NCBI RefSeq assembly: GCF_946463545.1
Contig: NZ_OX296583.1
Span: 1,426,001 to 1,490,000 of the forward strand
Source: Methanothermococcus thermolithotrophicus DSM 2095
GTDB taxonomy: Archaea; AGJL01; Methanococci; Methanococcales; Methanococcaceae
Direction: 5' to 3'
Length of the DNA stretch: 64,000 nucleotides
Shown: one piece after another, positions 16,538 through 52,331 of the stretch
Position numbering within the stretch: position 1 is the first letter of the stretch
How the letters are laid out: each line of letters begins with the position of its first letter
The notes under the pieces: generated by a model
Seen by the model: only the letters and a program-made list of their open reading frames with translations
What the model was told of the DNA's origin: nothing
Databases searched by the model: none
Translations under genes and position numbers: made by a program

Positions 16538-16594
16538 TATACTAGTTCTGGATACTGTATAGAAAAAACTATTCGATGCTAATGATAGGTTAAA

Positions 16595-16699
16595 AATGAA
16601 GATACGAAAACTTATAAAACTTTAAGCAATTTAAACTTATATACTGATGAAGAAGAGAAAAATGAAAAATTATTTAAAAGATTAAAAAAAGAAAATTAA
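16595..16699 (+). pseudogene. Remnant of an ESCRT-III-like protein C-terminus
   Basis: The plus strand reads ...LSNLNLYTDEEEKNEKLF then KRLKKEN and a stop. The intact ESCRT-III-like protein encoded at 43157..43798 ends VSNLNLDTDGEEEEDDEELF, KRLEKENQ. The match covers the acidic tail and the MIM1-like terminal helix. No intact upstream part is visible. It is followed at once by a decayed beta-propeller gene, as the cluster at 43-47 kb has a propeller after its ESCRT-III/Vps4 genes. Confidence 0.6.
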
Positions 16700-17147
16700 T
16701 AATTTCCTACTTTGCTTTTTATGGGGGATATAATGGGGAATATTATGGTTTTAGAACTAATGAATTAATTGAACAAGAAGAAATAGACGAAATACATGTT
16801 TCTGGATTGTTATGGAAATTTAGATTACATATATAAAAATTTGGCAATTGTTGGATATGGGGGCGATTGTTTATACTTTTGGTATTAATACTGGTAAAAA
16901 GGTTTGGGAGTTTGAAACAAAAAGGGGTAATCTCATTTTGTAAGTATGGCAATATTGTGATGGTTGGATGTTATGATGATGCATTTATGCCTTAAATTCA
17001 AATAATGGCTCTAAACTTGGGAGTTTGAGGCGAGTAGTAGTATAGAGGGTCAATGAAAAAAGATATTTTAGTGATGAAATGTAATATCGGGCATATTTAT
17101 GCTTTTGATTTTAATATAATATCGGATAATCTCTTAAAAAGTAAATA
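16700..17147 (+). pseudogene. Decayed PQQ-like beta-propeller protein
   Basis: Pieces in shifting frames read FYGGYNGEYYGFRTNELI, GLLWKFRL, TGKKVWEFETKRGN, YALNSNNGSKLWEFEASSSI and GHIYAFDFN. The repeated Tyr-Ala-Leu-(Asn/Asp)...Gly-x-x-x-Trp-x-(Phe/Tyr) pattern is the PQQ/BamB propeller blade. Several frameshifts and stops break it. It directly follows the ESCRT-III-like remnant and precedes the PLD-helicase gene. Confidence 0.6.
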
Positions 17148-29403: not shown

Positions 29404-32400
29404 TTAACTAAAATCAAACAAAGTTTGCTGACCATATTTCAAATCAAATTCTTCTAAGACTTTTTTTCCGATTTTATCTCCAAGCAAACTGATGACTTTT
29501 GACTGGTTCTTTGGAATGTCATCTTTGCTTTTTATTCCAGCGTTGTATAGTTTTCTGGCCCTAACTCTTCCAACGTGTTTAATTTTGAGTAACTCAATGA
29601 TATCTTTTTTAGCACCATACTCGAGTCTTATCTCCAATTCAGATAAACAGTCTTTGATTTGTTCATTTTTTAAATTTAATTGATTAAATATTTCTTTTGC
29701 AGAATATGCCATCCATTTAGCCTGTTCAACTTTGTACTTTAAAATCCCAGGTTCAATTCCATACCTTTTTAATATATCCTCCTCTGGAACCTCATTAATC
29801 CAGTCGTAGAACATCTTTGCAGTTTTAAAGCTTTCTAAATTTTCCCAGGAATAATCATCAATATTTAAGTCCATCATTTCTAAAATTAAATCTTCTTCTT
29901 CATGATTTCTTACTCTTAAAGGGGGCCTCATTTCCGTGGTCATTGACAGTACATATAACATATAGAGCTCTAGATTTGTATTTAACTCAGAGGATTTGTT
30001 GATCTTTTTTAATCCATCTATAATTATTTTTGCACTATATGGATCAATATACAGTTCTGAAACTCTTTTCCCAAGTTTTGTTGGTGTAAATGCAACGATA
30101 AAATCATAATCCTCTAAAAAATCAACGACTTCTTTTACATTCCTCAAAACTCCTTGGAGACTTCCATACTGGTGAGCATAAAATGTGTTTTTTATAAAGT
30201 TTTTTAAATCCATTTCATTTTCAACTTCCCTCGTGGATATCAATCCAAGGATATGGGTTCTAAGAACTTTTTGATTGGAAAGTTTTGAGTATATGTCCTC
30301 CACCTTTCCAGTTAAGTATTCAAAACCTTTTTCAACATCGTTTGGATTTTTTATATAGACTATTCCTTCACCATAAGGATCTAAACCAGGTCTCCCGGCT
30401 CTTCCAATACATTGCTGAATTTCCATTTTTGAAATTGGAGCCATACCTCTACCGGAAAATCTCTTTAAATCCCTTACAATTGCTCTTCTACAAGGTAAAT
30501 TTAGTCCAGCAGAGTTATGTACTATAAATCCATTTGCCACAACATAATGGTCATTTGTCCCATCATCTGGTAGTTCTATGTCATAAGCATATTTGTCATT
30601 TACCTTTATTTTTTTAATTTCTTTGATCATGCTCCAATAAATATCTCCATCATAATATTCTTTTTTCCAACTATGTCTCATTTCTTTGTAGAGTGGCTTG
30701 CCACAAATTGGGCATTTTTCAAGATTTACTAAGAAGTCATACATTTCTTCTAAGTTCTCTTTATCTTTTATATTTTTATTAAGAAGATTCATTAAAATTT
30801 TTCCTTTATCATTTAGAGAATAATATACTCCTTTTTTATTTCCACCTATCTTTTCTCTTATGATAAACTCAAAATGGGGATTCTTTCTCTTTGAATAGTA
30901 GTTATTGTAGTTCATAACCAATTTTTTTCCATTTAATAGTTCAAAAAGTAATTTTACACGCTCTTTATTTAATTCATTCTGACTTTTTGTTCTTGGCTTA
31001 AACATAGTTAAATCAATGCTAAATCCGCAATCACACCACATTTTAGCAATTTCCTTACTTTTTACGATTTCTTCCAATTTTCTTCTTTTTTCCTTGTGTC
31101 TCAGTGGAATATTTTCATAAAATCTTTTTACACTTACAAAATCACCAATTATTAGTTCATAAATATCTCTACTTTTGTATTCTTTATTATTTGTTGGCGA
31201 TCGAAGCGAATCCTTTGGATTCGCTGTCGAAGCAAATCGAAGATTTGCTGACTCACGAAACCTTCGGTTTCGTCGAGACTTACAAAACCTGAAGGTTTTG
31301 TTAAGCTTCATAACTTTTCCTTTTCTTTTTCTAATGGTGCTATGTATTCCAAACCTCAATAATGCTAATTGTAGTTTTTTGATTAGATTTTCTGATATCG
31401 AAGAGAATCCTATTTTCTTTCTGTTGGCATTAATGTATCCATCACTATCAAACAACCCTGCAATAAAGTGTGATAACTTTTCCAATGGAAGAATGTAAAA
31501 TACATCAATATTTTTGTTATCCTTAGTGAGCATATTTAATTCATTAAATACTTCCCTTAGTCTTTTTGAATATACATAATGAGAAACATTTCCTTCCTCT
31601 TTAATTTTTAAAAAGTATTTTTTGTGAAGTTTAGAGTCATCAAAATTTGGCGGGTATTTTGGATTAAACGTAATATCGGGACTACCTCTAAATACATTTT
31701 TTTCGATAACACCGGTATAGCCATCTCCTATAAAATATCCAATGAAATAAAGGTCCCCATAGGATAAATCAATATCTCTTTCTTCAACCACTATTTTATC
31801 AGCAGTAGCCACATAGTCCCCCACTTTTAAATCCTTTGCTTCTTTTTCACAGGTCTCTTTTCCTTTTTTAACTAAGAACAAATGATTGGGGGTTGTGGTA
31901 ATTTTTAGCCCATTTGCGGTTTTTACAACAATATTATATTCATGTTGCGGGGTTTTATGAACTTTCCAACAATCCACTGGTCTTATTTTATTTCCACACA
32001 ATGCAAATACCTTTTCATTTTTATTCAATTCTGTAATCTTTTTAAATCCACTTTCTTGCAATATCTCGGTATTTGCATTTAAACAGAGTGTCGGAGTACA
32101 GCATATAACCTTTATCAGTTTCTTTCTGAATCCTTCTTCAACTATTTTCCTCTGTTCATAGGTAAGACCTGCATGGTGAAATGCCACCCCTTTTTCAATA
32201 CATTCTGCAAGAGCTCTACAGGTTTCAGTTGGTGGATCGAATATGCTTAAAACTTCGTCTTTCAGTTTTTGAAGTTCGTGTTTTTCACTGTGGGATAAGT
32301 ATTTCTTTAAATTCAATTTTTTTGCTTCACTAACCGCTCCTCTCTTAGAATTACAAAAAATTAAACATGAACCATCTTCATCGATACAATCTACAACCAA

Positions 32401-33162
32401 ATTCATAATGTCATTTTTATAACTATCGTTTAGGGGTTTTTGGAGTGAGCGAAGCGAACGGAGAGCAACGAAATCACTCTTCGTGATTTCGTCTAATGAA
32501 TTATTTTCATCAATGTATTCTATTTTGTTTTTATAGAATATTCCTTTTTTTAATTCCACAGGTCTCCAATCATCAATTACAAGTGTTGCATTTAGCCAGT
32601 TTGCAAGTTCCTCTGGATTCCCAACAGTTGCAGACAAACCGATTAATTGGATATTATTTAAATTCTTTAATTTCGTTAAAATGATCTCAAGGGTTCCTCC
32701 TCTTTCATCATCCCCTATTAAATGGATTTCATCTACCACTACAACAGAAACCTTATCTATCCAATCGATCCTATGTCTCATTAAAGAATCAAGTTTTTCA
32801 GCAGTAGTTATGATTAGATCGTAGCTCGATAAATTCTCTTTTTCATCAAAATCTCCAATGGACAAAGCCACTTTTAAACCATATTTTTCATATTTTTCTT
32901 TAAACTCGTCGTATTTTTCATTTGCAAGGGCTTTTAATGGAACTATAAATAGTCCCTTTTTCCCTGTCGGTTGTTTGTTTTCATCCAATAGATGGTTTAT
33001 TAGGGCTATCTCTCCAATAAGGGTTTTTCCACTGGCTGTAGGGATGCATATTAAAAAATTCTTTTGTTTATCAAGTAGTCCATGTTCCAATACCTTTTTT
33101 TGCGGCGGCCTAAGTTCCGTTATGCCGTTGTCGTTTAATACACTAAAAACATAATGCTGCAT
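29404..33162 (-). CDS. hel308: Hel308-type DNA helicase with intein
   Basis: Hel308 is a 3'-5' helicase acting at stalled replication forks. The precursor is 1252 aa; without the 524-residue intein the helicase is 728 aa, close to the family norm. Motifs are Q-motif ELRPPQ, Walker A CIPTASGKTLI, DEIH box VVVDEIHLIGDDERGG, GLSATVGNPEELA, then after the intein SAGLNLPCRRAIVRD and motif VI QCIGRAGRPGLDPYGEG, and a C-terminal HhH region (IKHVGRVRARKLYNAGI). The intein splits the motif between CCTPTL and SAGLNLP. An extra 20-odd residues (about 224-242) are encoded by an in-frame palindromic repeat. The ATG follows GGTGA. Confidence 0.95.
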   Translation of the reverse strand: MQHYVFSVLNDNGITELRPPQKKVLEHGLLDKQKNFLICIPTASGKTLIGEIALINHLLDENKQPTGKKGLFIVPLKALANEKYDEFKEKYEKYGLKVALSIGDFDEKENLSSYDLIITTAEKLDSLMRHRIDWIDKVSVVVVDEIHLIGDDERGGTLEIILTKLKNLNNIQLIGLSATVGNPEELANWLNATLVIDDWRPVELKKGIFYKNKIEYIDENNSLDEITKSDFVALRSLRSLQKPLNDSYKNDIMNLVVDCIDEDGSCLIFCNSKRGAVSEAKKLNLKKYLSHSEKHELQKLKDEVLSIFDPPTETCRALAECIEKGVAFHHAGLTYEQRKIVEEGFRKKLIKVICCTPTLCLNANTEILQESGFKKITELNKNEKVFALCGNKIRPVDCWKVHKTPQHEYNIVVKTANGLKITTTPNHLFLVKKGKETCEKEAKDLKVGDYVATADKIVVEERDIDLSYGDLYFIGYFIGDGYTGVIEKNVFRGSPDITFNPKYPPNFDDSKLHKKYFLKIKEEGNVSHYVYSKRLREVFNELNMLTKDNKNIDVFYILPLEKLSHFIAGLFDSDGYINANRKKIGFSSISENLIKKLQLALLRFGIHSTIRKRKGKVMKLNKTFRFCKSRRNRRFRESANLRFASTANPKDSLRSPTNNKEYKSRDIYELIIGDFVSVKRFYENIPLRHKEKRRKLEEIVKSKEIAKMWCDCGFSIDLTMFKPRTKSQNELNKERVKLLFELLNGKKLVMNYNNYYSKRKNPHFEFIIREKIGGNKKGVYYSLNDKGKILMNLLNKNIKDKENLEEMYDFLVNLEKCPICGKPLYKEMRHSWKKEYYDGDIYWSMIKEIKKIKVNDKYAYDIELPDDGTNDHYVVANGFIVHNSAGLNLPCRRAIVRDLKRFSGRGMAPISKMEIQQCIGRAGRPGLDPYGEGIVYIKNPNDVEKGFEYLTGKVEDIYSKLSNQKVLRTHILGLISTREVENEMDLKNFIKNTFYAHQYGSLQGVLRNVKEVVDFLEDYDFIVAFTPTKLGKRVSELYIDPYSAKIIIDGLKKINKSSELNTNLELYMLYVLSMTTEMRPPLRVRNHEEEDLILEMMDLNIDDYSWENLESFKTAKMFYDWINEVPEEDILKRYGIEPGILKYKVEQAKWMAYSAKEIFNQLNLKNEQIKDCLSELEIRLEYGAKKDIIELLKIKHVGRVRARKLYNAGIKSKDDIPKNQSKVISLLGDKIGKKVLEEFDLKYGQQTLFDFS
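30514..32085 (-). other. Hel308 intein with LAGLIDADG homing endonuclease
   Basis: Residues 360-883 of the precursor. The intein starts with Cys (CLNANTEILQESGFKKITEL), has the block B motif TTPNHLFLV and ends HYVVANGFIVHN before Ser+1. Two LAGLIDADG motifs are present (YFIGYFIGDGYTG and HFIAGLFDSDGYIN), so it encodes a DOD-type homing endonuclease. At 524 aa it is long. Part of the extra length is a palindromic repeat array read in frame (31196..31311) and a CxxC-containing stretch (CPICGKPLYKE). Confidence 0.93.
31196..31311 (-). repeat. Palindromic repeat array inserted in frame in the intein
   Basis: The plus strand shows successive hairpins GCGAATCC-TT-TGGATTCGC, GCAAATC-GAA-GATTTGC, GAAACC-TTC-GGTTTC and AAAACC-TGA-AGGTTTT, joined by GTCGAAG, TGACTCAC and GTCGAGACTTAC. 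These are the same stems and separators as in 6020..6206. The coding strand reads through as KTFRFCKSRRNRRFRES and ANLRFASTANPKDSLRSP, with no stop. Confidence 0.85.
32432..32496 (-). repeat. Palindromic repeat inserted in frame in hel308
   Basis: The plus strand reads GAGCGAAGCGAACGGAGAGC, then the hairpin ACGAAATCAC-TCT-TCGTGATTTCGT and CTAATG. It is the same unit as 13591..13642 and 60493..60540. The gene reads through it as DEITKSDFVALRSLRSLQKP between YIDENN and NDSYKNDI, a spot where I recall no such insert in other Hel308 proteins. Confidence 0.85.
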
Positions 33163-40851: not shown

Positions 40852-41379
40852 ATGAGTAATTTAATAGTGGTAGATTATGACAAAGATGCTGAGAGAAAGA
40901 GGATTGATTACCTAATCGAAAGATGGTCAAATAAAGGAAATTTGGAGAAAATAAGAAAGATGGCTATAATAGCAGATATAGATGACGTGGATGGATTTGT
41001 AAAGGATATTATGTCCCGTTTGGAAGGAAATCCTGAAGAGAAAGTGAGGGTCTATGAAATTAAAGAATTGAAAAAAACAATATCTTCAAAAAAAACCACA
41101 CTGAGCTATAAGATTACCGATAAAAAAGAAGCTGTAGAGGGTTTTTTAAAATATCTTATGATAAAACTCGGTGCAAGCTACGAATGTTCTGTAAATGGTA
41201 CAAAAAAATACGAAGTATACACAAAAAAAGGGAATTGTTCCATTTCAATCAAATTAAAAGAAAATAATGAAAATAAATTGATAATAAACTTTGAAATTGA
41301 AGGTTACGGCGAAAGTGTGGATTTAATAAAAAATAAAATTGACAATGATATGAAATTATTTATTGAGGGGTTATTATGA
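40852..41379 (+). CDS. Hypothetical protein, first gene of the ESCRT-like cluster
   Basis: This 175 aa protein is soluble and charged; I do not recognise it. The N-terminus is helical (KDAERKRIDYLIERWSNKGN). The second half looks like an alpha/beta domain (KEAVEGFLKYLMIKLGASYE, CSISIKLKENNENKLIINFE). Its stop overlaps the ATG of the next small gene (ATGA), so it is translationally coupled to the cluster and likely belongs to it. Confidence 0.65.
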   Translation: MSNLIVVDYDKDAERKRIDYLIERWSNKGNLEKIRKMAIIADIDDVDGFVKDIMSRLEGNPEEKVRVYEIKELKKTISSKKTTLSYKITDKKEAVEGFLKYLMIKLGASYECSVNGTKKYEVYTKKGNCSISIKLKENNENKLIINFEIEGYGESVDLIKNKIDNDMKLFIEGLL

Positions 41380-41507
41380 GTCTGTTTTCAGAGGGGAATT
41401 ATGAACAATTAGATAAACTAAAACAAAAAGCAAACAGAGTATTAAGGGATGGATACGATATAATATATGAACCTTATGAAAAAGGGTGGAGTTATGGAAT
41501 AGAATAA
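41376..41507 (+). CDS. Small protein, 43 aa
   Basis: The protein reads MSLFSEGNYEQLDKLKQKAN then RVLRDGYDIIYEPYEKGWSY and GIE. The start overlaps the stop of the preceding gene (ATGA), and the end overlaps the start of the next gene by 22 bases. This tight packing favours a real gene. Its opening MSLFSEG resembles the MSLW/MELW openings of the following proteins, so it may share a membrane- or partner-binding N-terminus. Confidence 0.5.
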   Translation: MSLFSEGNYEQLDKLKQKANRVLRDGYDIIYEPYEKGWSYGIE

Positions 41508-43111
41508 AAGAAAACTATGAAAAATACAAAGATGGGGAATGCGGGACTTTTTCAAAAGACCTTGACAATGCCGTAAGAAGAGATTTTGAATGGGCATTAG
41601 CAACACTTGCATTTAGTTTTTACCATAACAACGAATCATTTCCAGCAATTAAGCGATATAGTTTTAAGGAGCTCGAACTTGTGGAGTATATTTTAAAATA
41701 TAACGTATTTGAAATCTGGACAGCAGATGATATTTTAAGGGAAATAAGCAAAGCAAATAGAGACGGCACAGATAAAACCTTAAACCTTCTTAAAGAATAT
41801 TATAACAACATAGGAAAAAAAGTTGATGAAATTATCAAAGACCACACGATAAAACTTCCAATAAGGGATTATGCCCAAACAAAATGGAAAGAATACAAAA
41901 CTAAAATGGATGAAGCAATATTCAGGGCAATGAAGGAAATAGATTGGTTTAGTGATTTTATAACGGGCGTAGATAATAAAATCCAAAAACTTGAAAATGA
42001 AATTTACGAGCTCCGTGATTTTGTAAGGGTGGAAAAGAGAAGGTTGAGGGATGAACTCAAACGAGAAAAAGAAATAGAACTGTCAAAAATTGAGGAAATG
42101 AAAGAAGAGTTAAAAAGAAGGTTTGAGAGGGAAAAAGAAAAGATAAGAATAGAAATTGAAATGGAGAAAAATAGGGAGCTCCGAGAGAAACTAAACAAAG
42201 AAATTGAATATATTGAAGAGGATTACAGGGACTTTATTGATGAGTTAAATGAAAAAATAGAATCACTGGAATCAGAAAAAACAGAATTAAAGGAGAAAAA
42301 TGAGAAATTAACTGACCTTTTAAAAAGGATAAGGGATGCTAAAAAGGAAGGTTCGAGATTTGTAAGAACAGAAAACGCATTATCCTATGAGGAATGGTTT
42401 ATTGGACGATTGGATAAAAAATTAGATGAAATGAGGAAAACGGGCGTGAAAGTTGAAAATAAAACTTTTAAAATAATCTCTATTGAAGAAGTATTTAATC
42501 CAAACAATTCAGTGGAACTTCCTAAAAATAAACAAATAAAAGCAGTGTTAAAGGAGAAAAAGCTTAATCCGTTTGGTAAAAAGATGGAAGTAATGTTGAG
42601 GGGGATGTTCTTAGCAAATGGGGGAAATTACAAAAAAATGGGTTTTGATGTTTATCCAATATCATTGGGTAAAATAATTGAGGTGGTGGAGAATGTGAAA
42701 GATGGCAGTTTTGATAAAATTGTGTTACTGATTGCCTCACCAACGGGTTTTGAGGATGAAGTAATTAAATTTGTCAATTCTGATGACTTTAAAATGAGAT
42801 ATTTATCCAAAAAAATTGCTCTCGCACTTCTCGATGTTGAAACTGGAAATTTATACTATAATGAAGTGGATGAGTATGCAAAGGCATTTGCACCATTGAT
42901 GAGCTTGGAATTTGATAAGGAGAAGGTTGAAAGATTGAAAAAGTATATTGATGAGAACATATTTATAAAAAGATATATTACGCTGGAAGAGGCTATCAAT
43001 GAAGTTGGGGATGAAAGGGTGGCAAAAAAGGTATTTTATGAGTACGAATCTTCTGGAAAGGGGGAAACTAAATATTATAAAGAAATTGGTTTTGTTTTGT
43101 TAAAAAAATAA
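41486..43111 (+). CDS. Large coiled-coil protein of the ESCRT-like cluster
   Basis: The 541 aa protein starts at GTG 41486 (MELWNRIKENYEKY, an amphipathic helix). Residues 1-165 are helical. Residues 170-290 form a long coiled coil (LRDELKREKEIELSKIEEMK, FEREKEKIRIEIEMEKNREL). The C-terminal 230 residues form a globular domain (FDKIVLLIASPTGFEDEVIK, then YITLEEAINEVGDERVAKKV, possibly a small winged helix at the very end). I do not recognise the family. By position it could play the part of CdvA, the coiled-coil protein that recruits ESCRT-III in Sulfolobus; that is inference. Confidence 0.7.
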   Translation: MELWNRIKENYEKYKDGECGTFSKDLDNAVRRDFEWALATLAFSFYHNNESFPAIKRYSFKELELVEYILKYNVFEIWTADDILREISKANRDGTDKTLNLLKEYYNNIGKKVDEIIKDHTIKLPIRDYAQTKWKEYKTKMDEAIFRAMKEIDWFSDFITGVDNKIQKLENEIYELRDFVRVEKRRLRDELKREKEIELSKIEEMKEELKRRFEREKEKIRIEIEMEKNRELREKLNKEIEYIEEDYRDFIDELNEKIESLESEKTELKEKNEKLTDLLKRIRDAKKEGSRFVRTENALSYEEWFIGRLDKKLDEMRKTGVKVENKTFKIISIEEVFNPNNSVELPKNKQIKAVLKEKKLNPFGKKMEVMLRGMFLANGGNYKKMGFDVYPISLGKIIEVVENVKDGSFDKIVLLIASPTGFEDEVIKFVNSDDFKMRYLSKKIALALLDVETGNLYYNEVDEYAKAFAPLMSLEFDKEKVERLKKYIDENIFIKRYITLEEAINEVGDERVAKKVFYEYESSGKGETKYYKEIGFVLLKK

Positions 43112-43156: not shown

Positions 43157-43798
43157 ATGAGTTTATGGAACAAAATAAAAGGGAAATTACAAAAAAATCC
43201 AATAGAAAAATTAACAATAAGAGACTTAGAGGGGGAAAGAATTAGATTAAAAAGTAAGTTAGATAGGGTGAAAAAAGAGATAAAATCATTGGATAAGCAA
43301 AAAAAGCAATTATTCAAAGAAGGGGTTGGTGCCGATAAACTCACAAAAAAAATGCTTGCACAGGACATAAAAAGTGTTGAAATGGAAATGAGATTAAAGT
43401 ATAAAAGCTTCCAAACTTATCAGAAGCAGTTTAATTTTGTAAATAACCTGTTAATTGTTAAAAAATACGAAAAAGAATTGAAAAATATAGGAATGTGGAA
43501 TAAAATTAACAACATACAACCTGAGCTCTTGGAGTTAAAACTGAGTGATATAATACTTGATGGTAAGGAGTTTGACCAAACTGTTGAGGGGTTGAATAAA
43601 GTATTTGAAATGAGAATTGATGATTTTGATGAGGAAGTCGATAGCACAGAGAAAAAACTATTCGATGCATGGGGGCAGGCTGAAAGTGGTGATATGGAAG
43701 CTGATGAGGTTGTGAGCAATTTGAACTTGGATACTGATGGGGAGGAAGAAGAGGACGATGAAGAATTATTTAAGAGATTAGAGAAGGAGAATCAATAA
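43157..43798 (+). CDS. ESCRT-III-like protein 1
   Basis: The 213 aa protein has the ESCRT-III plan: a short amphipathic N-terminus (MSLWNKIKGKLQKNP), a basic first helix pair (LEGERIRLKSKLDRVKKEIK, SLDKQKKQLFKEG, then LAQDIKSVEMEMRLKYKSFQ), more helices and an acidic C-terminal half. It ends EEEEDDEELFKRLEKENQ, which fits the MIM1 pattern (D/E)xxLxxRLxx(L/K) that Vps4 MIT domains bind. Residues 155-175 (NKVFEMRIDDFDEEVDSTEK) would be the helix 5 region. It is 45 bases after the coiled-coil gene with a GGTG ribosome binding site. The identification is by pattern, not by database search. Confidence 0.7.
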   Translation: MSLWNKIKGKLQKNPIEKLTIRDLEGERIRLKSKLDRVKKEIKSLDKQKKQLFKEGVGADKLTKKMLAQDIKSVEMEMRLKYKSFQTYQKQFNFVNNLLIVKKYEKELKNIGMWNKINNIQPELLELKLSDIILDGKEFDQTVEGLNKVFEMRIDDFDEEVDSTEKKLFDAWGQAESGDMEADEVVSNLNLDTDGEEEEDDEELFKRLEKENQ

Positions 43799-43969
43799 TA
43801 ATTTAATTTTTTATTTTTTTGAATATAATGTTATGTGGGATATTGTGGTATTTGATAAGATTAAAATCCCGATATCTTATGAAGTAGTGGCATCAGCGGA
43901 GGTAATAATCCATAAGATTAAATTAGGTTTCAAATGTGATTAAAATATCTCAAAAAATGAGGGGATAAA

Positions 43970-44605
43970 ATGTTAGGTAAATTAAAAAGTCTGTTCTCTA
44001 AAAATAAAAATCCATTAGATATGCCATTAGATAAACTAAACGAATCAAAAATAAAATTGGATATTCAAGTTAAAAAATTAGAAGATGAGCTCTCAAAAAT
44101 AGACGACCAAATTACAATATTGTTTGGAAAGGCAAAGAGCTCTAAAAGCAAAAGTGAAGAATTGACAATTGCTACAAAAATAAAAACTCTCAGTCAAAGA
44201 AAAAAGCAATTACAAAATTCTCATGCTCTATTAAACAAACAGGTGAGATTCGTAGATAATCTTTTAGTAATAAAAGAAAATGAAGAGATTTTAAAATCCA
44301 CGCCTTTATGGAACACACTAAACAGTATGTCGCCACAGGAGTTGGAAAATTATCTAATTAATATGAAAATAAACAGTGAAAATATTATCGGAACACTAAA
44401 TAACGCTCTCGGTATCACCGATGACATGCTGAGCTCGGCATCAGAAGAACATGATGAGGATATTGCTGATATTTTAAATACAATACATGCGGTTAAAGAG
44501 GGGGAATTGGATATTGACGATGCAAAGGAAATAGTATCCGATGAAAAGAAGCAGGAAAAAGAAGACGATTTTGAAAAGGAATTGAAAAGAATATTAGAAG
44601 AATAA
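43970..44605 (+). CDS. ESCRT-III-like protein 2
   Basis: This 211 aa paralogue of the preceding protein starts MLGKLKSLFSKNKNPLDMPL, has the same long basic helical hairpin (KIKLDIQVKKLEDELSKIDD, then TLSQRKKQLQNSHALLNKQV) and the matching middle (VRFVDNLLVIKENEEILKST; protein 1 has FVNNLLIVKKYEKELKNI). The acidic tail ends DDFEKELKRILEE, again MIM1-like. Having two unequal ESCRT-III paralogues next to a Vps4 gene is as in Sulfolobus CdvB sets. A GGGG ribosome binding site precedes the ATG; it lies 51 bases before the Vps4-like gene. Confidence 0.7.
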   Translation: MLGKLKSLFSKNKNPLDMPLDKLNESKIKLDIQVKKLEDELSKIDDQITILFGKAKSSKSKSEELTIATKIKTLSQRKKQLQNSHALLNKQVRFVDNLLVIKENEEILKSTPLWNTLNSMSPQELENYLINMKINSENIIGTLNNALGITDDMLSSASEEHDEDIADILNTIHAVKEGELDIDDAKEIVSDEKKQEKEDDFEKELKRILEE

Positions 44606-44656: not shown

Positions 44657-45877
44657 TTGGAAATTGATTTATCCGGAGCTCTGATGAGTCAGTTTAAAAG
44701 AGCTAAAAAAGAATATGAGATAGCAAAGGAGAAAAAGAACGAAAGTATTGCTAAAAAAAAGGCGTTAGAATGTGCCAAATTATTGAGACAAATAGCAAAG
44801 TATGATGGATACAATGAAAAAAGCTATTTGGAGAAAGCTAAAAAATGGGAGTTAGTGGCAAATAACATAGAAGAAGTATTTAATCCATCAAAAGCTAATA
44901 AATCCAAACCTACAAAAAAATCAGCACCATCAAATAAACCAAACTCATCAAACACCACAGAGGATGAGGCAGAAGATGAAATTGATAAGTTTAAAAATTT
45001 TGTGAAAAATAATTTAATACAAAAATCCACTATGAAGTGGGACGATATAGGGGGGTTAGAAGAAGTAAAACAGCTTATGATGGAAACCATAGTAATATCA
45101 GCACTTCAAAAGCCTGCATCAATACAACCATGGAAAGGGATTTTATTATTTGGACCACCAGGAACAGGTAAAACACTATTAGCTTCTGCATGTGCTGGAA
45201 GTTTGGAAGCAACATTCTTTAATGTGAAGGCATCATCCGTATCAAGTAAATACTACGGCGAATCTTCAAAAATTGTAAGTGCATTATATGATGTTGCAAG
45301 GGAGCTCCACCCAAGTATTGTATTTATTGATGAAATCGATGCCTTAACAACAAAGAGGAGCGATGGAATAAGTGAGGCATCAAGGAGGATGTTATCAACT
45401 TTATTAACAGAATTGGATGGTTTTCAAGATAAGGGGAGCGATAGGTTAATATTAACACTTTCGGCAACAAATACGCCATGGGATTTAGATGAGGCGGTGC
45501 TTTCAAGGTTTTCAAGGAGAATTTATATTCCTTTACCTGATAAAGAAGCTACAAAGGAAATTATTAAAATTAACACAAAAGGGGTTAAGTTGAATGTTAA
45601 TTTAGATGAAATTGCGGATAAGTGTGTGGAAAAACTCTATTCTGGTAGGGATTTAAAAAATCTCTGTCAGGATGCTATTTGGAATATGATTAGGGATGTA
45701 AATAAGGATTTGTATAAAATGGCTAATTTGTCCTATAAAGAGTTGAAGAGGAGGAAGTTAAAAACAAGAGCTCTGACTGATGATGATTTTGAAGAGGCAT
45801 TTAAGAAAATAAAAAGCCCTTTAACTAAATCTGAAATTGAGAAGTATGAGAAATGGGGGGAGGAATTTGGAGGATAA
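44657..45877 (+). CDS. Vps4/CdvC-like AAA ATPase with MIT-like domain
   Basis: Vps4 ATPases pull apart ESCRT-III filaments. The 406 aa protein has an N-terminal three-helix MIT-like domain (residues 1-75: KRAKKEYEIAKEKKNESIAK, LLRQIAKYDGYNEKSYLEKA), a low-complexity Lys/Pro/Ser linker (78-105), and an AAA domain. The latter shows WDDIGGLEEVKQLMMET, Walker A FGPPGTGKT, pore loop SKYYGESSKIVSALYDVARE, Walker B IVFIDEIDAL and RFSRRIYIPLPDKEA, very close to the Vps4 form. The end TKSEIEKYEKWGEEFGG matches the Vps4 C-terminal helix. The start is TTG at 44657, six bases after GGGGGG. Confidence 0.85.
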   Translation: MEIDLSGALMSQFKRAKKEYEIAKEKKNESIAKKKALECAKLLRQIAKYDGYNEKSYLEKAKKWELVANNIEEVFNPSKANKSKPTKKSAPSNKPNSSNTTEDEAEDEIDKFKNFVKNNLIQKSTMKWDDIGGLEEVKQLMMETIVISALQKPASIQPWKGILLFGPPGTGKTLLASACAGSLEATFFNVKASSVSSKYYGESSKIVSALYDVARELHPSIVFIDEIDALTTKRSDGISEASRRMLSTLLTELDGFQDKGSDRLILTLSATNTPWDLDEAVLSRFSRRIYIPLPDKEATKEIIKINTKGVKLNVNLDEIADKCVEKLYSGRDLKNLCQDAIWNMIRDVNKDLYKMANLSYKELKRRKLKTRALTDDDFEEAFKKIKSPLTKSEIEKYEKWGEEFGG

Positions 45878-45923: not shown

Positions 45924-47487
45924 ATGAAGTTTAGGAATTTGTTGATTGGGATATTATTAGTTGGGATTTTTGTAAATGTTGGAGTTGTTTTTGGAGAGGA
46001 TGTTGTAAAGCCAGAGTGGGCATATCATTTAGGTGATTGGGCAAGTGCTATATCGATAACTCCTGATGGAAAATATATCGTTGCTGGAACGGGGGGCTAT
46101 GGAGGTAATGGTGATTATAAAGTTTACTTATTTAATAATAAAGGAAACTTACAGTGGTCTTATAAAATAGATGGTAAAGTAGAATCTGTGGCAATAACTC
46201 CAGATGGTAAGTATATAGTTGCGGGAACATGGTTTGACAAAAATGGAAATAATCATAGAGATTCAGAAGACTATGGGAAAGTATATCTTTTTAATAAAGA
46301 TGGAAATTTATTGTGGAGTCGTAATTTAAATCCTACAGTATATGATGTTTCAATATCTTCTGATGGAAAATACATTGTTGTAGCATATTCCAATAAGCTT
46401 TCTGTTTTTGATACCAAAGGGAATCTATTATGGTCATATGAAACATACAGGTGGATATACTCTATATCGATAACTCCTGATGGAAAATATATCGTTGCAG
46501 GAACTGGCAGCACCGGTGACTATGGTAGGGTTTATCTATTTGATTAATGAAGATAATGTATTGTGGAGTTATAATGCGGGTTTTGTTAGATATGTTTCCA
46601 TAACTCCGGATGGAGAATACATAGTTGCTGGAAAAACCCCTCATGGAACAAATAATGGTCAAGATGACGAAAATACAATTTATTTATTTAATAAAAATGG
46701 AAAATTACTTATGAGTTATAATGTTAAAGGAAAAATTCGTGAAAAATCTATATCAATATCACCGAATGGTAATATTGTTGTTGGTACCTGGGTTGATGAA
46801 AATAAAGACAATGTAATGGACCCTATGGATACAGGATATATTTACTTTTTTGATAGTGGTGGATTGAAATGGAAGTACCATACTAATGAAGGTATCCACT
46901 CTACATCCGTAGATTTTAATGGCAAATATATAGTTGCTGGAGGTACTCATGGTTCAATATACTTGTTTAATAATAATGGAGATACATTGTGGAATTATAA
47001 ATTACAACGATTAATTACGGTTTCTATAGACTCATATGGAAAATACATTGTTGTAGGGTCATTATTTGATATTTATTTATTTGATAACCAAAAAATATTA
47101 GAAATTTTAAAAGAAAAAGACAATGGAACACTTGAAATATCATCAAATCTACCAAATGCTAAAATTTATATTGATGGCAAATATAGTGGATTAACTCCAA
47201 AAACTATTAAATTACCGCCTGGAACTTATGAAATTACACTAAAAAAAGAAGGATACAGCGATTATAAGACCATACTAACCATCAATGGTGGAGAAACTAA
47301 AAATTTAAACGTTAATTTAAAACCTGTAGTTGCAGAAACAACTAATACACCCAATACTAAAGAAGAAAAAGTTTCTGTGGGGACTAATACTAATAAGGAT
47401 AACAACAACCTGTTATTTATAATCATGGGGCTATTAATAACTGGCGGAGTAGTAGGTGGGATTTATTATGCAAAAAAAAAGGCATAA
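45924..47487 (+). CDS. Secreted/anchored beta-propeller with PEGA domain, frameshifted
   Basis: Two reading frames (45924..46547 and from about 46545 to 47487) make one protein of about 520 aa if one extra T near 46542-46545 is removed. It has an N-terminal signal peptide (LLIGILLVGIFVNVGVVFG), seven or so WD40/PQQ-like blades with the repeated core (A/S)ITPDGKYIVAGT...YLFNKDGNLLWSY, a PEGA domain (GTLEISSNLPNAKIYIDGKY, GTYEITLKKEGYSDYK), a linker and a C-terminal membrane helix (FIIMGLLITGGVVGGIYYA) then KKKA. So the propeller would sit outside, held at the membrane. The next gene, a kinase, overlaps its end. Confidence 0.75.
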
Positions 47488-48676
47488 GGGAGAATCTAAG
47501 ATTCCAGACTTTCCAAGAGAATTATTAAACAAATACATTCCACTACAAAAATTAGGAGAAGGTGGATTTGGAAAAGTATTTAAAGTTAAAAGAAAAGGCG
47601 GAACATTACCATTAGCAATAAAAACACCTAACTTAAACGAAAAAGCTAAAAAATACTTATTAAAAGAAATCAAAGCATGGAAAAATCTTAATCATCCAAA
47701 CATAGTTAAACTATATGATACATTCACAGAACCAATCCCGCATATAGAAATGGAATATATTGAAGGATGTAACATAAATGGAAAATCAGTAAAAGATTTA
47801 GATGATTATCCAAAACCATTAAATCCAAAGGAAAGTATTAAACTAATAAAACAAATAGCAGAAGGGTTAAAACACGCTCATGACAAAAACATAATCCACA
47901 GAGATATTAAACCATCGAACATCCTATTAACTCAAAATTTAACACCAAAAATAACAGACTGGGGATTGGCAAAAATAGGGGCAAAATCATCAACAGCAAC
48001 AACCACAAAGGGATTAACTTTACTATATTCAGCACCGGAGCAAATAGATGAAGAAGAATACGGAAAGACAGATAAAAGAACGGATATTTATCAGTTAGGA
48101 GTTTTATTCTACGAGTTATTAACCGGTAGATTACCTTATGAAGGAACTTCACCAGCTCAAGTATCATTAAAAATAGTAAATCCAGATAAAAAACTACTAC
48201 CGCCATCAAAAATAAATCCTAATTTGTCAATATTTGATGGAATATTTGAAAAACTCTTGGCAAAGAAAAAGGAAGATAGATTCCAATCAATAGATGAGTT
48301 TTTAGAGGCTTTAAATTCATTAGGAGAACTAATCAAAGAAAAAGAAGGGTTCAAAAACACATTAACCAAAACCATACAAAAACTAAAAACATCAACTGAC
48401 AAAAAAGAGATTGAAACATTAACTAAAGAGCTCATAAACTCAACAACAAAACTTGCTTTAAACTGCGCAGATACAAATGATAAAGTTGGATTATTGGAGG
48501 CATTGGAAATATTAAAAGATCATGCCAAATCAGATGAAAATAGAAAGGACTTGGAAGGAGCAATAAAACATATAGAATATTTAATAAAAGAAAGCATCCC
48601 TCTTGGAAAAGATACTAGGGAGAAACTTAAAGTTTTAATCAATAGGATTAAGAGAGATGAAAATAAAATATATTAG
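47468..48676 (+). CDS. Eukaryotic-type Ser/Thr protein kinase 1
   Basis: The 402 aa protein contains a full kinase domain: glycine loop LGEGGFGKVFKV at about 23, AIKTP with the ATP-binding Lys, catalytic loop HRDIKPSNIL, metal motif DWG (in place of DFG), SAPEQ (APE) and RTDIYQLGVLFYELLTGRLP. A helical C-terminal part of about 120 residues follows. It has no membrane helix, so it acts in the cytoplasm, under the anchored propeller gene it overlaps by 20 bases. ATG 47468 follows GGTGGG; an in-frame GTG at 47456 lies inside that site. It is probably cotranscribed with the Vps4 and phosphatase genes. Confidence 0.9.
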   Translation: MQKKRHKGESKIPDFPRELLNKYIPLQKLGEGGFGKVFKVKRKGGTLPLAIKTPNLNEKAKKYLLKEIKAWKNLNHPNIVKLYDTFTEPIPHIEMEYIEGCNINGKSVKDLDDYPKPLNPKESIKLIKQIAEGLKHAHDKNIIHRDIKPSNILLTQNLTPKITDWGLAKIGAKSSTATTTKGLTLLYSAPEQIDEEEYGKTDKRTDIYQLGVLFYELLTGRLPYEGTSPAQVSLKIVNPDKKLLPPSKINPNLSIFDGIFEKLLAKKKEDRFQSIDEFLEALNSLGELIKEKEGFKNTLTKTIQKLKTSTDKKEIETLTKELINSTTKLALNCADTNDKVGLLEALEILKDHAKSDENRKDLEGAIKHIEYLIKESIPLGKDTREKLKVLINRIKRDENKIY

Positions 48677-48821: not shown

Positions 48822-49000
48822 ATGAAAAAATATATCTGGCAATTCTAATGTCGTTATTGGCAACTGTAACTTTTTGCGGATGTATTGATGAATATTCAAA
48901 ATACATAAATGATGTATCTAATGTAGTATATCGGTGCATTATATATGGAGGGGGGAAATATGATAGAATATATTTGGGAATCATTCACATATATATTTAA
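48822..49000 (+). pseudogene. Short lipoprotein-like frame broken in an A-run
   Basis: An ATG at 48822 follows a good AAGGTGAAAT site but stops after 8 codons. If the run of six A at 48825-48830 had seven, the frame would read MKKIYLAILMSLLATVTFCG then CIDEYSKYINDVSN, a signal peptide ending in a lipobox-like Cys. It would then overlap the next gene. Either a decayed gene or a sequencing slip. Confidence 0.45.
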
Positions 49001-49931
49001 AGATAAAAATTGGAAAAAAAAGCTTGTTAAGGGTGGGGCAATAGGGGTAATACCTCTACTTAATATTTCATTACTTGGCTATATGGTAGATATGATAACT
49101 CTTATTTATAAAGGTAAAAATAATGAGTTGCCTGAATTTGATATATCTAGTCAATTTATCGATGGATTTAAGATATCCGCAGTTCTTTTTGTATATTTTA
49201 TATTATTTTATATATTGCTTATTGTGATTCTCGGTATTTTTTCGGTAATTTTCAAAGACAATATTTTTAGTGTTATTGGTATTGTGTGCTTCGCAATATT
49301 TATGTTATTCATGCATATCGCATTTTCACATTACATATATACCAACAAAATATCTTCATTTTTTGAATTCACTACATTATTTAGAATACTTAAAAAAACA
49401 TGGGTTAATATCCTAATTTTTGATATTATTTACTATATTATTATGGGCTTTTTAGCTATTGCGATATATATAATGGCAGCCCTATTTTCCATGACAATTA
49501 TATTAATTCCTGTGGCTATTTGGTTATTGGGGGCATTCTATTATTATTCCTGCATAGTATTTGGTTATTTCTGTGGAAAAGTATACTTAGAAGGAATTAA
49601 TAAAAAACCAATAACTATGGGCTCCAAAGTGTTACCGACCAAGACGGTATCAAACAATAACAAAGATTTAAATCTACTTAATTCCTACCTATTAGGGGCT
49701 AAGGAGCTATTACCCGGAGCATTGGATGATTTTCGAAACAACAACTTAAATGATGCCATAAAAAAATGGAATAAATCATTGGAATACTATAAAAAAGCAG
49801 AGAAAATAGCAAAATCAAACAAAGATGAAGAATTAATTTCATCCCTAAATAATAACATTAAATCAGTAGTCCATAACATATTAGATGCAAAAATTAAATT
49901 AGTATCTGATAAAATTGGGGGGATGGTATGA
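48960..49931 (+). CDS. DUF4013 membrane protein with helical C-terminal tail
   Basis: The 323 aa protein starts with the DUF4013 signature MIEYIWESFTYIFKDKNWKK and has five or six membrane helices (residues 25-220). Residues 228-323 form a soluble helical tail (LLPGALDDFRNNNLNDAIKK, WNKSLEYYKKAEKIAKSNKD) that looks like a TPR or MIT-type three-helix domain. In the context of an ESCRT-III/Vps4 cluster this could be a membrane anchor for filament proteins; that is inference. The ATG 48960 follows GGAGGGGGG. The next kinase gene overlaps its stop by 4 bases. Confidence 0.75.
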   Translation: MIEYIWESFTYIFKDKNWKKKLVKGGAIGVIPLLNISLLGYMVDMITLIYKGKNNELPEFDISSQFIDGFKISAVLFVYFILFYILLIVILGIFSVIFKDNIFSVIGIVCFAIFMLFMHIAFSHYIYTNKISSFFEFTTLFRILKKTWVNILIFDIIYYIIMGFLAIAIYIMAALFSMTIILIPVAIWLLGAFYYYSCIVFGYFCGKVYLEGINKKPITMGSKVLPTKTVSNNNKDLNLLNSYLLGAKELLPGALDDFRNNNLNDAIKKWNKSLEYYKKAEKIAKSNKDEELISSLNNNIKSVVHNILDAKIKLVSDKIGGMV

Positions 49932-51432
49932 TAAAGGAAATATTAAATGAAATAAATGCTATTGAGAGATTTTTAAAAAATCATAGGGAGTATTTAGGGG
50001 AGGAGTATGCCAAATATCAAACCACATTAAACGAGCTCAGGTTAAAAGTTAAACTAAAAGAAATCGAAAATAATGTAATGGATGCTTTAACATTGAAATC
50101 AGATGAAGAGTATTTAAAAGCAAGGGATCTCTTAAAAAAATCTTCTAACGATATTGATAAATTAGAGGATGAAATGATAAATTTAAAGATAAAAACATTT
50201 AACAGTCAAATTACTAACTTAAAAAATCAAATAAATAATGAATTAAACTTCATAAAAAATTTGTTATTAGGTGAAGACTCCTCAATAAATGCGCCATATA
50301 ATTCCTCATCGGTTAATTCTTCAAATCCTATAAATCAATCATTTAGTGGAGAAAACGAATTATTGAATATACTAAATGAATTATTATCAAAATATCAAAA
50401 TCCTATAAAAATTGGGGAAGGGGGATTTTCCCATGTATTTAAAGTAATTAAAAATGGAAAGACAGTAGCCCTAAAAGTCCCGAAAGAATTAACTGAAATT
50501 ACTGGGGAGTTATTCCTTAGAGAAATAGGAAATTGGAAAAAATTAAAACATATCAACATTGTTCGACTTTATTATAGTAATATTTATCCATATCCATACG
50601 TGGAAATGGAATACTGTGAAAAGGAATTAAATAAAATAAAAAATAATTTAGAGTTAAAAGAAGCAGTTTTATTATTTTTTGAAGTGTTAAATGGACTGAA
50701 ATATGCACATAGTAAAGGGATAATTCATAAGGATTTAAAACCACACAACATTTTAATAAACAACAACATACCAAAAATTACAGATTGGGGACTATCAAAA
50801 GAAACTACTTCAAAATCCACAACTATAAACGCTTTAACTCTACAATACTCAGCACCAGAACAAATAAGCAGGGGAACAATCGATAAAAGGACGGACATTT
50901 ATCAAATGGGGGTAATCCTATACGAATTAACAACAAAAAACTACCGTTTAATGGTAATGAGTTTGACATAATCGATAGTATTAAAAACGAAATGCCGCCA
51001 AAACCATCGAAATTAAATCCTTTAATTGATGAGGAGTTGGAAAATATTATCTTAAAATGTATCCAAAAAGACAAATCCAAAAGATACCAATCAGTAGAAG
51101 AATTGCAGAAGGATTTATCAGAATACCTAAACATACAACTTACAACTAACCTTACAGCTTCAAAAACAAATAAAGATTTTAGTAGAAGTATATTCTATTG
51201 TGCTGATTTGGTTTTATTCCACTTATTAAACAACGATTTAGGGGATGCTTTAAATTATCTCTACGATTTAAAACATTATGCAAATAAGAATTGCTCTGAG
51301 GAAATAATAAATTCCGTTGATAATCTAATAAAAGCTATCGAATATCGGATTAAAGAAGGGATAAAGGAGCCATCCGATGAGATAAAAATAAAGGCGAAAA
51401 TAGTAGTAAATAAGGTTAAGATGAGATTTTAG
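49928..51432 (+). CDS. Eukaryotic-type Ser/Thr protein kinase 2, frameshifted
   Basis: Two frames (49928..50971 and 50992..51432) form one protein of about 501 aa if the A6 run at 50935-50940 had seven A. The joint then reads YELTTKKLPFNGNEFDIIDS, as in normal kinases. Residues 1-120 are a coiled-coil domain (NEINAIERFLKNHREYLGEE). The kinase domain has IGEGGFSHVFKV, VALKVPKE, HKDLKPHNIL, DWG, SAPEQ and RTDIYQMG. HKDLKPHN differs from the usual HRD but keeps the catalytic Asp. The C-terminus is a helical domain related to that of kinase 1. As written, the protein lacks the end of the kinase lobe. Confidence 0.8.
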
Positions 51433-51440
51433 GGGGTAAT

Positions 51441-52331
51441 ATGGAAATAATAAACAAATTTCTAAAAAAAATTGGATATAAGAAAGATGGAGAAGAAAAA
51501 AAGGACAAATCTAAAACCAAAATAAAAATTGAAGAAGAAAAAACCATGGATATCGAAATTCCAAAAATTGAACCTACTGAAAATTTTAATCGTGATGAAA
51601 TTGTTTTTGAGGAAGATAATGCCTACGGTATATCCCACAAAGGAAATAGAACAAACAACGAAGACAATATCTTAATTAAAAAAATAAAAGATACCTACAT
51701 ATTAGCAGTTGCAGATGGTGTCGGAGGGCACAGCTCAGGAGATGTTGCATCAAAGATGGCAGTGGATATTTTAGAAAACATTATCATGGAAAAATACAAT
51801 GAAAACCTATCAATTGAAGAGATAAAAGAACTTTTAAAAGATGCATACATTACGGCACACAACAAAATAAAAGAAAACGCTATTGGAGATAAAGAGGGAA
51901 TGGGAACAACACTAACAACTGCAATAGTTAAAGGGGATAAATGCGTTATAGCAAACTGCGGGGATAGTAGGGCTTATTTAATTAGAGATGGAGAAATAGT
52001 TTTTAGAACAAAAGACCACTCTTTGGTTCAGGTTTTAGTAGATGAAGGACATATTTCAGAGGAGGACGCAAGGCATCATCCAATGAAAAATATCATTACC
52101 TCAGCATTGGGATTGGATGAATTTAAGGTAGATGATTACGAATGGGATTTAATTGATGGTGATGTATTATTGATGAGCTCCGATGGGCTTCATGATTATG
52201 TCAGTAAGGAAGATATTTTAAAAACTGTAAAAAATAATGATCACCCAAAAGATATTGTAGATGAATTATTCAATACTGCATTAAAAGAGACAAGGGACAA
52301 TGTGAGTATTATCGTATATAAAAAGCAATAA
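51441..52331 (+). CDS. PP2C-type protein phosphatase
   Basis: The 296 aa protein has a Lys/Glu-rich N-terminal 65 residues and then a PP2C domain: GNRTNNEDN, VADGVGGHSSGDVAS with metal-binding Asp, MGTTLTTAIV, NCGDSRAYLIRDG, LMSSDGLHDYVS and the final RDNVSIIVY. All metal Asp are present, so it should be active and reverse the two kinases. The N-terminus MEIINKFLKKIGYKKD could be an amphipathic anchor like those of the ESCRT-III-like proteins. It starts 9 bases after the kinase 2 stop and is the last gene of the cluster. Confidence 0.92.
   Translation: MEIINKFLKKIGYKKDGEEKKDKSKTKIKIEEEKTMDIEIPKIEPTENFNRDEIVFEEDNAYGISHKGNRTNNEDNILIKKIKDTYILAVADGVGGHSSGDVASKMAVDILENIIMEKYNENLSIEEIKELLKDAYITAHNKIKENAIGDKEGMGTTLTTAIVKGDKCVIANCGDSRAYLIRDGEIVFRTKDHSLVQVLVDEGHISEEDARHHPMKNIITSALGLDEFKVDDYEWDLIDGDVLLMSSDGLHDYVSKEDILKTVKNNDHPKDIVDELFNTALKETRDNVSIIVYKKQ

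Follow-up and report, generated by a model that had tools for sequence, protein, structure and literature searches.

Main-clade archaeal ESCRT systems, reportedly first noted by Makarova et al. in 2010, are the closest described relatives of the locus analysed here. The MIT domain of Vps4 has a known role in binding ESCRT-III tails, and among the motifs that it binds is MIM1, which has the consensus (D/E)xxLxxRLxxL(K/R) and lies at the C-terminal end of ESCRT-III tails. Crenarchaeal CdvB reportedly has no MIM1. In the account of the main-clade systems by Makarova et al. 2024 (PMC10936438), MIMs are named only in the introduction and in figure abbreviations, and Euryarchaeota have been reported to be without identifiable domains for interaction between Cdv proteins (Frohn et al. 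2022, PMC8970359). In the literature examined, no description of an MIT-docking motif in a main-clade locus was found.

The window, which is the whole stretch of DNA analysed, covers 64 kb of the 1.706-Mb single-contig genome of a Methanococcales methanogen. Its ESCRT locus is an already known "main clade" archaeal ESCRT system, with the arCOG08177 and arCOG09748 labels used here inferred from PMC10936438. The locus includes an arCOG08177-like small protein of 175 aa (40852-41379, + strand; 32% identity over 173 aa to a Thermococcus plasmid operon gene) and an arCOG09748-like coiled-coil protein of at least 541 aa (41486-43111, + strand; 583 columns aligned with its Thermococcus counterpart at 32% identity), which is expected to carry a C-terminal winged helix. 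Directly 3′ of the arCOG09748-like gene lies the gene for the ESCRT-III-like protein P1 (213 aa; 43157-43798), followed consecutively by those for a second ESCRT-III-like protein, P2 (211 aa; 43970-44605), and for a Vps4/CdvC-like AAA ATPase (406 aa; 44657-45877), all on the + strand. A serine/threonine protein kinase (47456-48676, + strand; Pkinase 9.1e-50), a DUF4013 membrane protein with a truncated kinase (48945-50971, + strand), and a PP2C-type phosphatase (51441-52331, + strand; Stp1/IreP PP2C model 1.4e-63) are also present. Vps4, ESCRT-III, arCOG09748-like, arCOG08177-like, kinase and phosphatase genes occur together in the window, in Methanococcales, and on the Thermococcus plasmid.

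Several features of the window were recorded alongside these genes. The second kinase is split (49928-51432, + strand), its frame stopping within the kinase domain at 50971 and resuming at 50992, and a Methanothermococcus relative (L131) has DUF4013 and kinase fused in a single 641-aa protein. A secreted WD40/PQQ-like propeller with a C-terminal PEGA domain and a TM segment (45924-47487, + strand) is read in two overlapping frames (45924-46547 and 46480-47487), was probably split by a frameshift, and might serve the ESCRT locus as a cargo or adaptor. At 16561-16703 (+ strand; 73% identity over 150 bp, E 1e-19) lies what is left of another P1 gene, its decayed 3′ end; it still reads EEEKNEKLFKRLKKEN at its end although its upstream frame is lost, and a second copy of the ESCRT genes was apparently once present in this region. 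At 29404-33162 (- strand), a Ski2-type helicase is interrupted by an apparent intein (C-terminal ...VVANGFIVHN|S).

An AlphaFold2 (AF2) model of P1 consists of a helical hairpin, with alpha1 at residues 21-56 and alpha2 at residues 61-103 (36 and 43 residues), and subsequent short helices, which is the arrangement expected of an ESCRT-III fold; the pLDDT of the core is above 90. Foldseek ranked Sulfolobus islandicus CdvB (9s9j) first, then CdvB2 filaments, with Snf7 and CHMP chains among the matches listed. The model also aligned with Snf7 (5fd9) at Z 11.1 and an rmsd of 2.4 over 91 aligned residues, and with CHMP2A-CHMP3; in Z, generic hairpins tie with these ESCRT-III matches, and E-values are weak throughout. 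The Pfam Snf7 profile had 0 matches in the P1 family and matched 10 of the 37 P2 family members (best E 3.2e-4). P2 was recovered with P1 as the query and reciprocally, so the two are paralogues. Because the E-values are weak, the ESCRT-III assignment is made by convergence of the fold, the gene order, the Vps4 neighbour, and the Snf7 matches in the P2 family. In this respect the sequence-only reading, which had called P1 ESCRT-III-like, agrees with the model and its CdvB, Snf7 and CHMP matches.

Searches were performed in 36 genomes of the order, and a phylum-wide search of the window's phylum covered the same 36. P1-, P2- and ATPase-type genes co-occur in the same 13 genomes. The P1 of one genome (G033) is cut by a contig end, so that 12 P1 tails and 13 P2 tails were compared. 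The P1 and ATPase genes are about 11 kb apart in one genome (G014) and on separate contigs in another (G034), which indicates that their linkage is not strict. A Vps4-like ATPase fragment with 53% identity and a different N-terminal helical domain was found in G008 (C72:5-733, L018) and in L135, and G008 has neither P1 nor P2. Methanothermococcus sp. SCGC AD-155-C09, the nearest named record found, has an ATPase with 87% identity.

The neighbouring ATPase had been described in the sequence-only reading as a Vps4-like protein with an MIT-like domain, and this description is borne out. Pfam AAA (E 1.2e-37) and Vps4_C (28.7 bits against a Pfam cut-off of 21.3) both match the protein, which places it with the Vps4 type; the CdvC model matched at 1.1e-59, below that model's own cut-off. 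Residues 1-76 (44657-44884, + strand) are modelled as an MIT-like domain of three helices (6-25, 29-49 and 54-69) in an AF2 model built from 39 sequences with a mean pLDDT of 89.4. The first Foldseek match of this domain was the Sulfolobus Vps4 MIT domain 2w2u (probability 0.99, TM 0.63/0.66, E 0.45). In the VIA list, 2w2u, 2v6y, MITD1, VPS4A-CHMP1A (2jq9) and yeast Vps4 appeared at Z 9-11, and designed helical bundles scored similarly to these MIT domains. Pfam MIT had no match in the 39 ATPase members, and a PDB profile search returned no MIT entry. Judged by the fold of the model, the N-terminal domain would be an MIT domain. It is also conserved with the Thermococcales Vps4 (DLSGxL...KKALEC...Y-L-x-x-A-K-K-W). 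Its equivalent of VPS4A Leu64 is ambiguous, being Leu58 in one register and Glu65 in the register given by the end-points of the structural alignment. Leu64 of VPS4A is needed for MIM1 binding (PMC11218997).

The translation of 43157-43798 (+ strand) ends in ...GEEEEDDEELFKRLEKENQ, and the last 15 residues of P1, 199-213 (EDDEELFKRLEKENQ; 43751-43795, + strand), form a MIM1-like peptide. A strict MIM1 core, (D/E)xxLxxRL, is present at D201-L208 (DEELFKRL; 43757-43780, + strand), that is, at the extreme C-terminus of the 213-residue protein. The third Leu and the K/R of the full consensus are missing from the window protein, which has E211 and N212 there. P1 has the strict core within its last 20 residues, and none of the 394 other proteins predicted from the same genome does, their C-termini being drawn from the window and 20 stretches of 20 kb; when the P1 tail was shuffled, the core arose in 0.2% of cases (p 0.0022). 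The fit of P1 to the MIM1 core is thus beyond chance. The sequence-only reading had dropped a Q from the P1 tail, so that its quotation was one residue short of the full end DDEELFKRLEKENQ, and had quoted the P2 end, FEKELKRILEE, correctly.

The strict core is kept in 9 of the 12 P1 orthologues; the exceptions are EDEDIFKEIRK in G003 and EDEDWLKKMEKE(S) in G014 and G034. Conservation of the Leu and Arg positions, which had been proposed as a check on the motif, gave a divided result. The hydrophobic positions are retained in all 12 P1 orthologues (L/I/W at L204 and L/M/I at L208), and D201, K206 and K210 are unchanged in all 12, but the MIM1 Arg (R207) varies between R, K and E, and in P2 the conservation fails. 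In terms of selection, the pN/pS of P1 was 0.13 for the core, 0.35 for the acidic linker, and 0.16 for the tail, and the linker-minus-tail difference exceeded zero in 99.6% of column bootstraps (P = 0.004). Residues 199-211 are therefore a conserved island under purifying selection behind a fast-evolving acidic linker. The AF2 model has a helix at residues 198-211 with low pLDDT (about 45), and this low-confidence helix next to a core above 90 fits a peptide that folds upon binding.

The sequence-only reading had held that both proteins end in MIM1-like peptides. For P1 this stands approximately, given the strict core and the missing third Leu; P2 does not follow it. The P2 terminal peptide (DDFEKELKRILEE; 44564-44602, + strand) fits neither the strict core nor a relaxed one that allows [LIMV] and [RK], and the core was found in 0 of 13 P2 orthologues. 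In EKELKRIL the Arg stands at -2 from the second Leu rather than at -1, a shift of one residue, and this tail likewise lacks the third Leu and K/R that complete the consensus. The peptide is kept in 8 of the 13 P2 orthologues and missing in 5 (G003, G014, G026, G033 and G034), and pN/pS was 0.52 for the P2 linker and 0.33 for its tail (P = 0.056). The P2 tail as a second MIM1 is rejected by its register and by the truncations. Taken together, the conservation and selection data indicate that the terminal peptide is selected in P1 and dispensable in P2. MIM2 was rejected for both proteins, as the proline-rich core phi-P-x-phi-P was absent from the 12 P1 tails, the 13 P2 tails, and all Thermococcales and Halobacteriota tails.

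On balance, our data lean slightly towards the P1 tail being a short linear motif of a divergent MIM1 type, which would dock on the MIT-like domain and so recruit the Vps4-type ATPase, with P2 lacking the motif. By analogy with ESCRT biology, P1 and P2 would co-polymerise on the membrane, P2 being a co-polymerising subunit that needs no motif. The last ~13 residues of P1, which follow the disordered acidic linker, would fold into a short amphipathic helix and dock in the putative MIT groove of the nearby ATPase, with L204 and L208 providing hydrophobic packing and D201 and K206/K210 as candidate salt-bridge partners. Docking would then recruit the ATPase motor, and the polymer would be disassembled, presumably by extraction of its subunits. 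The main doubts about this contact are the variable Arg, the missing third Leu, the confinement of the strict motif to the order, and the arCOG09748-like neighbour as an alternative partner.

The last of these doubts leads to a different account, in which the P1 tail docks another partner encoded at the locus, most likely the arCOG09748-like protein, or folds back against the core of P1 as an autoinhibitory helix, and Vps4 is recruited in some other way. P1 follows an arCOG09748-like gene in both Methanococcales and Thermococcales, including G014, in which P1 and the ATPase gene are far apart. A winged helix mediates the contact between CdvB and CdvA in Sulfolobus (PMC5840170). P1/P2-type proteins were found in 39 of 94 Thermococcales genomes and in 17 of the 392 genomes from the phylum to which a Methanoregula belongs, here called Halobacteriota, and neither the strict nor the relaxed MIM1 core was present in the 49 P1 proteins (32 from Thermococcales and 17 from Halobacteriota) or in the 48 P2 proteins, although the Thermococcales ATPase keeps the N-terminal domain; a clade-wide strict MIM1 in P1 is therefore rejected. 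A looser terminal peptide, phi-x-[KR]-x-phi-E, ends 16 of the 32 Thermococcales and 15 of the 17 Halobacteriota P1 proteins, none of the 48 P2 proteins there, and about 5% of shuffles. This pattern was defined post hoc from the sequences, its register is not that of MIM1, and MAFFT left it unaligned to the methanococcal peptide, so homology is not claimed. Against a partner other than Vps4, the known winged-helix contact of CdvB is made by a beta-strand peptide, unlike the P1 tail with its predicted helix, and the ATPase retains an MIT-like domain, a type of domain known in Vps4 for binding ESCRT-III tails. We regard this account as unlikely, although it deserves serious consideration.

An improbable alternative has the MIT-like domain binding P1 and P2 through a different element that is conserved in both, for example the W-x-x-[VA]-E-x-G helical hairpin (P1 residues 163-188), which would leave the C-terminal peptide as a minor addition specific to the lineage. 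Across 47 P1 proteins from the three groups, W172, E176 and G178 do not vary, P2 has an equivalent K-E-G-E-L segment, the strict MIM1 is confined to Methanococcales, and the Methanococcales P1 tails are longer, with 28-35 residues after the invariant G against 19-26 elsewhere. However, this hairpin may correspond to nothing more than the alpha5 region of ESCRT-III, and the known Vps4 contacts in eukaryotes, Asgard archaea and Sulfolobus are located in C-terminal tails. An accident of composition, with an acidic linker running out into a charged amphipathic stretch that has no partner, describes the behaviour of the P2 peptide with its truncated orthologues, and is very improbable for the P1 tail in view of the selection on residues 199-211, the absence of the core from the genomic background, the rarity of matching shuffles, and the nine orthologues with a strict core.

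A third Snf7-like protein, P3 (Pfam Snf7 4.2e-4), was found in 30 of the 94 Thermococcales genomes, and in several of them it adjoins a second Vps4. P3 ends in LEPx(x)[RK]LKxIExxM[RK], which is conserved in 29 of 29 sequences collected by phmmer; half of this motif occurs in 7% of background C-termini. No P3 was found in the window or at the Methanococcales loci that were examined, the comparison being of loci rather than whole genomes. It may be a recurring design that each system has a single subunit with such a tail.

A complete main-clade ESCRT operon is carried on the 49-kb plasmid of Thermococcus peptonophilus OG-1 (NZ_CP014751.1; L323, 9624-17527), with arCOG08177- and arCOG09748-like genes, P1, P2, a S/T kinase, Vps4, PP2C and P3. 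Such a plasmid location may explain the patchy distribution of the operon. P1 had no match in phage records, and nothing was found in genomes picked through Cdc48-type matches. A Clostridia MAG from sheep rectum (JAFWXT010000085.1; L206, 6421-9263) carries a gene for an AAA ATPase with Vps4_C, whose N-terminus may be MIT-like, and two ESCRT-III-like genes 5′ of it. One of these matches the P2 profile (1e-8), and the other matches the P3 profile (6.5e-11) and ends in EALKKKIDSMI, an LxxRLxxL-type tail. The MAG may be misbinned; Vps4 transfers to bacteria have been reported, but with snf7 displaced (PMC11237479).

Returning to the favoured docking of P1 on the MIT-like domain, a wider proposal can be made tentatively: that helical motifs of the MIM1 type recruit Vps4 in euryarchaeal ESCRT systems, beyond the Asgard-eukaryote line, and lie on P1 in Methanococcales and on P3 in Thermococcales. 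If this is true, MIM1-MIT docking would either predate the Asgard-eukaryote system or have no connection with it. The candidate contact is between a single peptide and an 80-residue domain, each of a size suited to production and assay, and binding of the P1 tail would explain motor recruitment in these systems and mean that MIM1-MIT is no longer a mark of the Asgard-eukaryote line alone.

In comparison with eukaryotic Vps2/CHMP1-2, whose MIM1 binds the Vps4 MIT domain (2JQ9, 2V6X), P1 likewise has a predicted helical peptide at its C-terminus behind an acidic linker, with an acidic residue followed by Leu-x-x-Arg-Leu, and a candidate partner with an MIT-like domain and Vps4_C. It differs in the absence of the third Leu and the terminal K/R and in its variable Arg. 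The Vps2/24/46-type ESCRT-III proteins of Asgard archaea also have a MIM1-like C-terminus in genomes with an MIT-bearing Vps4 (PMC7240154, Lu et al. 2020; PMC8970359); the methanogens, however, do not belong to the Asgard-eukaryote lineage, Pfam Snf7 does not match P1 itself, and the duplication that gave P1 and P2 need not equal the Vps2/Vps20 split. The crenarchaeal CdvB-CdvC pair (MIM2-MIT, 2W2U) shares the ESCRT-III core fold and the MIT fold, as 9s9j and 2w2u were the top Foldseek matches, whereas its motif is the proline-rich MIM2, whose core neither P1 nor P2 has. The main-clade systems have the same Vps4, ESCRT-III, arCOG09748- and arCOG08177-like, S/T kinase and PP2C genes in Methanococcales and Thermococcales; to these, the present analysis adds the P1 tail motif, the asymmetry between P1 and P2, and the P3 tail, which are absent from the main text of PMC10936438.
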